64,000 nt of DNA from Xanthomonas sacchari. Its GTDB lineage: Bacteria; Pseudomonadota; Gammaproteobacteria; Xanthomonadales; Xanthomonadaceae. Each line of letters opens with the position of its first letter. Position 1 is the stretch's first letter. Under the pieces are notes generated by a model, which saw only the letters and a list, made by a program, of their open reading frames with translations, was not told where the DNA came from and made no database searches. Positions 21,275 to 21,445 of this stretch are shown piece after piece. The stretch spans positions 930,001 to 994,000 of the forward strand of contig NZ_CP132343.1 of assembly GCF_040529065.1 (NCBI RefSeq). The letters run 5' to 3'. A program made the translations under genes and the position numbers.

Positions 21275-21445
21275 CTTCCGACTGATCATCGGAGGAGGTG
21301 TGGCAGGTCCAGTCGCTCCTAAAGCTTCGAGCTTGCATCGTAGATCGGCTCCGCCCTCCACATGCTGGCCCTTGTGTGTCCGAACGGTATCCAGAGTCCG
21401 CTCCCGGGCGTGAACTCGCATCGACAAGGCAGGACCGGGCCCAGC
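21275..21445 (+). ncRNA. Predicted bridge RNA of the IS110 element
   Basis: The noncoding left end folds into a 5' hairpin and two internal-loop stems. Hairpin: CTTCCGA/TCGGAGG (21275-21295). Target loop: stem GTGTGG-AGG (21298-21307) with CCTCCACAT (21355-21363), left guide AGTCGCTCCTA (21311-21321), capping hairpin AAGCT/AGCTT (21322-21334), right guide TCGTAG (21338-21343). Donor loop: stem GCTGG+CCC (21364-21371) with GGG+CCAGC (21437-21445), inner GTCC/GGAC, left guide ACGGTATC (21384-21391), right guide ACAAG (21424-21428). The guides match the REP target and the joined element ends. Bridge RNAs of this layout and size (about 170-180 nt) are established for IS621. The exact RNA ends are not known. 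Confidence 0.8.

Follow-up and report, generated by a model that had tools for sequence, protein, structure and literature searches.

How does an insertion sequence (IS) that lies at one and the same point of a palindromic repeat, copy after copy, find that point? The question is raised by an IS110-group element that interrupts a repetitive extragenic palindromic (REP) sequence in a 64,000-nucleotide stretch of the Xanthomonas sacchari genome (NZ_CP132343.1, positions 930,001 to 994,000; hereafter, the window). An earlier reading, made from the letters alone (the sequence-only reading), had proposed that the 244 nt preceding the transposase gene encode an IS621-type bridge RNA, with left and right guides for target and donor, programmed for a Xanthomonas REP. 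Our analysis supports that proposal, and the corrections it brought are confined to the lengths of the guides. We conclude with high confidence that this is an intact IS110-group (IS621-like) insertion sequence encoding an IS621-type bridge RNA aimed at the Xanthomonas REP, together with the whole mechanism of circle, promoter, pairing and exchange outlined below.

The element and its REP target

The transposase carries a DEDD RuvC domain and a Transposase_20 domain with the catalytic Ser, and its gene is flanked by a long non-coding left end (244 nt) and a right end of 17 nt past the stop codon, without long terminal inverted repeats, as in the IS110 group. A structure search returned the IS621 transposase as the best solved relative (E 2.5e-63). 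The two proteins share 133 of 320 aligned residues, and D8, E58, D100, D103 and S241 align with D11, E60, D102, D105 and S241, the catalytic residues of the IS621 enzyme (PMC11208158).

The 4.96-Mb host genome holds 18 full-length copies, 97.5-100% identical and of two main subtypes, all with the same terminal bases. Every one of the 18 lies in the same position and orientation in the REP arm CGCGGCT(G/A)AAGCCGCTC-CT-AC(G/A), and a further 368 REP ends of the form GCCGCTCCTAC[G/A] are present in the host. The same element occurs in congeners, and ends of Xanthomonas strain contigs match it at up to 97%. Empty orthologous sites in other genomes (L197, L198 and L200) read GCCGCTC-CT-ACR followed by the identical flank; insertion therefore adds only the second CT. 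The CT core is common to the target and both ends, with no other duplication in the 18 copies or at the empty sites.

Guides, targets and the joined ends

Guide positions were placed by alignment with IS621 (L155), in which the guides are A50-U58, G77-G80, A123-C130 and A157-U158/C162-G165 (PMC11208158). The sequence-only reading had suggested looking among relatives for guide loops that change together with their flanking targets, and such covariation was found. There were 15 distinct left target guides among 90 elements, and when each was set against its commonest target, 105 of 105 non-core positions paired, either Watson-Crick or G-U. Shuffled guide-target pairings gave a mean of 65.9 and a maximum of 88, and none of 100,000 reached 105; this shuffle ignores relatedness, but the targets are nonetheless clearly unlike (TTTCCACCCT, TTCGCCCCT, GGCAGCGGCT, ATCAGGCCT and others; the left target guide of BN417 is TTTCCACCCT). 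A mismatch between guide and target was seen in two single copies, L065 and L159. In L206 and L210, more distant gammaproteobacterial elements located with the RNA model described below, the left flank again matches the element's own left target guide (TTGCACCCT and, for L210, GACCGGCCCCT).

An older view has the protein bind the REP (PMC1525189). Along these lines, the transposase itself would recognise the palindrome, the matches in the leader would have been left behind by earlier target capture, and the leader itself would serve only as a structured 5' untranslated region (UTR) controlling translation. The leader does fall in the 5' UTR of the transposase gene, and a structured regulatory UTR, also of 244 nt, has been proposed for ISPpu9 (PMC8450116). 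However, the guides change along with unrelated targets (TTTCCACCCT, GGCAGCGGCT and TTCGCCCCT) inside otherwise conserved stems, L210 again matches its own flank, and a captured remnant would be expected to decay rather than to track targets at fixed positions. We therefore regard recognition by the protein as very improbable. Chance or compositional likeness between REP-like GC-rich sequence and a GC-rich leader is close to negligible, even though right guides of 4-5 nt easily match by chance, because the covariation runs across 15 guides and the four guide matches, in the order and spacing of IS621, did not arise once when the leader was shuffled 20,000 times with dinucleotides preserved.

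The letters and coordinates quoted in the sequence-only reading were all correct: AGTCGCTCCTA at 21311-21321, TCGTAG at 21338-21343, ACGGTATC at 21384-21391 and again in the right element end at 22462-22469, and ACAAG at 21424-21428 against CTTGT at 21236-21240. Some of the limits it drew have moved. The left target guide pairs with the target as proposed, including a G-U wobble that recurs in nearly all Xanthomonas copies, but the trailing A21321 is no guide base, as relatives show A, G, T or C there and the target base is almost always A. T21338 likewise drops out of the right target guide: the sixth target base is A in 9, G in 8 and C in 1 of the 18 copies, which leaves GTAG as the guide, with a fifth base that contributes weakly at most. 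The left donor guide stands as read. For the right donor guide the correct stretch had been identified but incompletely, since it is longer and split, AT-(CG)-ACAAG, as in IS621.

The left target guide is thus both complementary to its target and covarying with it. CTAC, the partner of the right target guide, hardly varies; in keeping with the REP pool of the host, the one base of that guide to vary is the fifth. It is C in the host (G000), G203, G204 and G135, whose elements lie more often at CTACG than at CTACA, and T in G202, G207 and G208, where all 20 elements lie at CTACA; one G208 copy is of the G202-like subtype. The REP pools (CTACG/CTACA) number 237/131 in G000, 151/155 in G203 and 153/96 in G135, as against 13/433, 2/357 and 11/565 in G202, G207 and G208. 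Because the pools differ in the same way as the fifth guide base, these sequences are consistent with a guide that follows the REP variant of its host, with a weak preference inside any one host and few independent events once relatedness is considered. We do not claim this preference as selection: G follows CTAC in 14 of 18 copies against 237 of 368 REPs in the host, and in 9 of 14 against 151 of 306 in G203, which are small differences.

The donor-binding loop is complementary to the junction of right end and left end (RE-LE). It is nearly invariant in the panel, and hence offers a match with little covariation. Joining the ends also brings together a sigma70-like promoter sequence (TTGCCT-17-TATCTT). 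Of the 27 junctions listed, 26 keep it; in L156, near IS621, it is shifted. As judged from its sequence, this promoter would start transcription at about 21245, at the foot of the 5' stem-loop. Transcription from the RE-LE junction is established for IS621 and five orthologues (PMC11208160), and by analogy the Xanthomonas bridge RNA would be transcribed from the joined ends.

The mechanism that we propose follows the one described for IS621 (PMC11208160, PMC11208158). Excision of the element would yield a circle whose RE-LE junction contains CT, and the promoter created there would drive a bridge RNA of ~200 nt from the left end. In the target-binding loop, the left guide GTCGCTCCT would pair with the bottom strand of GCCGCTCCT in the Xanthomonas REP and the right guide (C)GTAG with CTAC(G) on the top strand, while the donor-binding loop would pair with the circle junction ACGGTAT-CT-TGTAT. 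Strand exchange at CT, mediated by Ser in a transposase tetramer, would then place the element in the REP, with CT common to both ends. For transcription, ribonucleoprotein formation and strand exchange, we infer the Xanthomonas steps from IS621.

Fold of the predicted bridge RNA

The predicted bridge RNA spans approximately 21246-21446. The sequence-only reading had described two internal-loop stems and had suggested a covariance search over the leader. The 17 relatives used to build a covariance model came from Pseudomonas, Stutzerimonas and Rhodoferax, and Xanthomonas and IS621 sequences were excluded. The model matched the window at 21277-21446 (E 1.5e-30) and also recovered IS621 (E 6e-10). 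In an alignment of 24 sequences, the consensus stems were kept in 97.8% of cells, a percentage biased toward the structure because the same alignment served to derive it. The double changes are the stronger evidence: 92 stem cells were doubly changed, against a shuffled mean of 24.5, with 0 of 500 shuffles reaching 92, and shifting the stem partners along the alignment abolished the signal. The fold thus has the 5' stem-loop and two internal-loop stems of the IS621-type consensus, and is backed by covariation and an independently built model, not by single-sequence energy.

Four observations weigh against a guide RNA of this type. The folding energy of the single sequence is no better than that of shuffles (z = -0.31), a value that is uninformative and was not used as evidence; in the minimum-energy fold, part of the left target guide lies within a closed stem; an Rfam scan at the gathering threshold gives no family at this locus; and covariation has little to say about the right donor end and most of the right target, which are almost invariant.

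A conserved GATC-containing motif lies at about 21447-21457, downstream of the donor-binding loop. In many relatives it is complementary to the loop CTGATCA of the hairpin at 21277-21293, and it is absent from IS621. Pairing of that hairpin loop (GATCATC) with the 3' motif (GATGATC in many relatives) is suggestive, but it was not retained, since it is weaker in the window and does not extend to the distant L206 and L210.

Table 1. Coordinates of the element, its target and the predicted RNA features within the window
Feature	Position	Strand	Remarks
IS110-group element	21238..22470	+	~1233 bp; CT core common with target at 21236-21237 and 22469-22470
DEDD/Ser transposase, 323 aa	21482..22453	+	Pfam PF01548 (DEDD_Tnp_IS110) and PF02371 (Transposase_20)
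Left target: left part of interrupted REP arm ATCGCGGCTAAAGCCGCTC + core CT	21217..21237	+	Same sequence at all copies
Core CT + right target ACG	22469..22473	+	CTAC[G/A] at all Xanthomonas copies but one
Partner REP arm, opposite orientation, GTAGGAGCGGCTTCAGCCGCGAC	21172..21194	-	From sequence
5' stem-loop of predicted bridge RNA	21246..21275	+	Folds in all Xanthomonas/Pseudomonas-type relatives tested, with differing sequences
Second 5' hairpin TCCGA-CTGATCA-TCGGA	21277..21293	+	Covarying helix 1; conserved in subgroup
Target-binding loop (basal stem, internal loop, cap hairpin 21322-21334)	21294..21359	+	Covarying helices 2-4; model match
Left target guide GTCGCTCCT	21312..21320	+	IS621 A50-U58; A21311 matches too; covaries with target in 15 distinct guides
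Right target guide (C)GTAG	21339..21343	+	GTAG 21340-21343 = IS621 G77-G80; fifth base tracks host REP variant
Handshake guide AT	21344..21345	+	IS621 A81-U82; pairs with donor TA beside core; conserved but for one T-to-G in L066
Donor-binding loop (basal stem, internal loop, cap hairpin 21394-21417)	21363..21446	+	Covarying helices 5-9; model match
Left donor guide ACGGTATC	21384..21391	+	Equals 22462-22469; IS621 equivalent ACAGTATC
Right donor guide AT-(CG)-ACAAG	21420..21428 (AT 21420-21421, ACAAG 21424-21428)	+	Pairs with CTTGTAT 21236-21242; IS621 equivalent AT-TT-GCAAG
Predicted sigma70-like promoter	22443..22470	+	-35 TTGCCT 22443-22448, 17-nt spacer, -10 TATCTT = 22466-22470 + T21238 in the circle

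A variant copy and comparison with known systems

Because the left target guide reproduces the sequence of left target and core (the element's own left-guide DNA is CAGTCGCTCCTAAAG), every integrated IS110-group element carries its own half-target ~83 bp inside. One copy, L017 (with L019; G000:C1:3587386-3588704, - strand), is arranged as REP-left, left end 1-83, CT, complete element and REP-right. The 83-bp duplication of its left end sits between the target flank and the element's own guide, and the break coincides exactly with the CT within the left target guide. The guide repeats the target flank CGCTCCT, and for this reason replication slippage or unequal exchange would give L017 in one step. 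Alternatively, the element may have been led by its guide into the guide-coding DNA of another copy, the rest being lost later through homologous recombination; such self-targeting would be a cost of the bridge-RNA design. We consider this origin unlikely and do not favour it: its two left ends do not differ, no chimera is visible in the body, which is one base away from L011, and slippage at CGCTCCT explains the arrangement equally. With identical left ends and a single difference from L011, the two routes are not separated. A search of 20 congeneric genomes gave no second left-end duplication with this guide.

L017 and L011 (G000:C1:3587306 and 3947768 regions), besides being one base apart, have the same 59-bp REP pair to their left, whereas beyond the REP unit the two loci are unlike on either side. 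This likeness would be explained by gene conversion confined to the REP homology, or by movement of a REP unit carrying the IS. About 60 bp downstream of the element, at 22529-22600, lies a tandem array of the 7-bp unit CGAATCC (10.3 copies), and similar repeats occur elsewhere in the genome. Rfam matches in the window were a flavin mononucleotide (FMN) riboswitch, RNase P RNA and the Xoo8 small RNA (3586-3749, 28337-28703 and 46352-46690).

The element offers a compact, multi-copy and apparently intact IS621-type system in Xanthomonas. Its natural insertion sites number in the dozens and are spread over several host species with differing REPs. These sites form a natural data set for guide stringency, in which a 9-nt left guide is closely followed with a fixed G-U tolerated, and on the right a 4-nt guide is followed, the fifth base tracks the host pool and the sixth is ignored. 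The direct repeat between guide DNA and target flank is a side effect that can be tested. Durrant et al. reportedly predicted thousands of IS621 orthologues, and the element is for that reason possibly already known; it may be in their set or named in ISfinder.

Among known systems, the seekRNA elements of the IS1111 group (PMC11187229) likewise have an RNA-guided DEDD transposase. Their RNA lies downstream of the gene and they have long subterminal inverted repeats, whereas in the Xanthomonas element the RNA sits in the left end, the right end is 17 nt, and such repeats are absent. ISPpu9 and ISPpu10 of Pseudomonas putida (PMC1525189, PMC8450116) are IS110-family elements that insert into a REP at one fixed point with a 2-bp repeat, and the ISPpu9 leader has the same length. 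ISPpu9, compared by its published description only, differs in its AG repeat and in two other small RNAs (Asr9, antisense, and Ssr9, downstream). IS621 of E. coli (PDB 8WT6; PMC11208160, PMC11208158) shares the DEDD and Ser transposase, the left-end RNA upstream of the gene, the order of 5' stem-loop, target loop and donor loop, the guide positions, the split right donor guide, the handshake AT, the CT core, the junction promoter and a REP target. The REP sequence and the left target guide differ between the two, the donor reads ACGGTAT in the Xanthomonas element and ACAGTAT in IS621, and the Xanthomonas element has a second 5' hairpin and a 36-nt spacer from the donor loop to the start codon. 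The Xanthomonas element thus adds to the IS621-like bridge-RNA elements, whose mechanism is already known from E. coli IS621.
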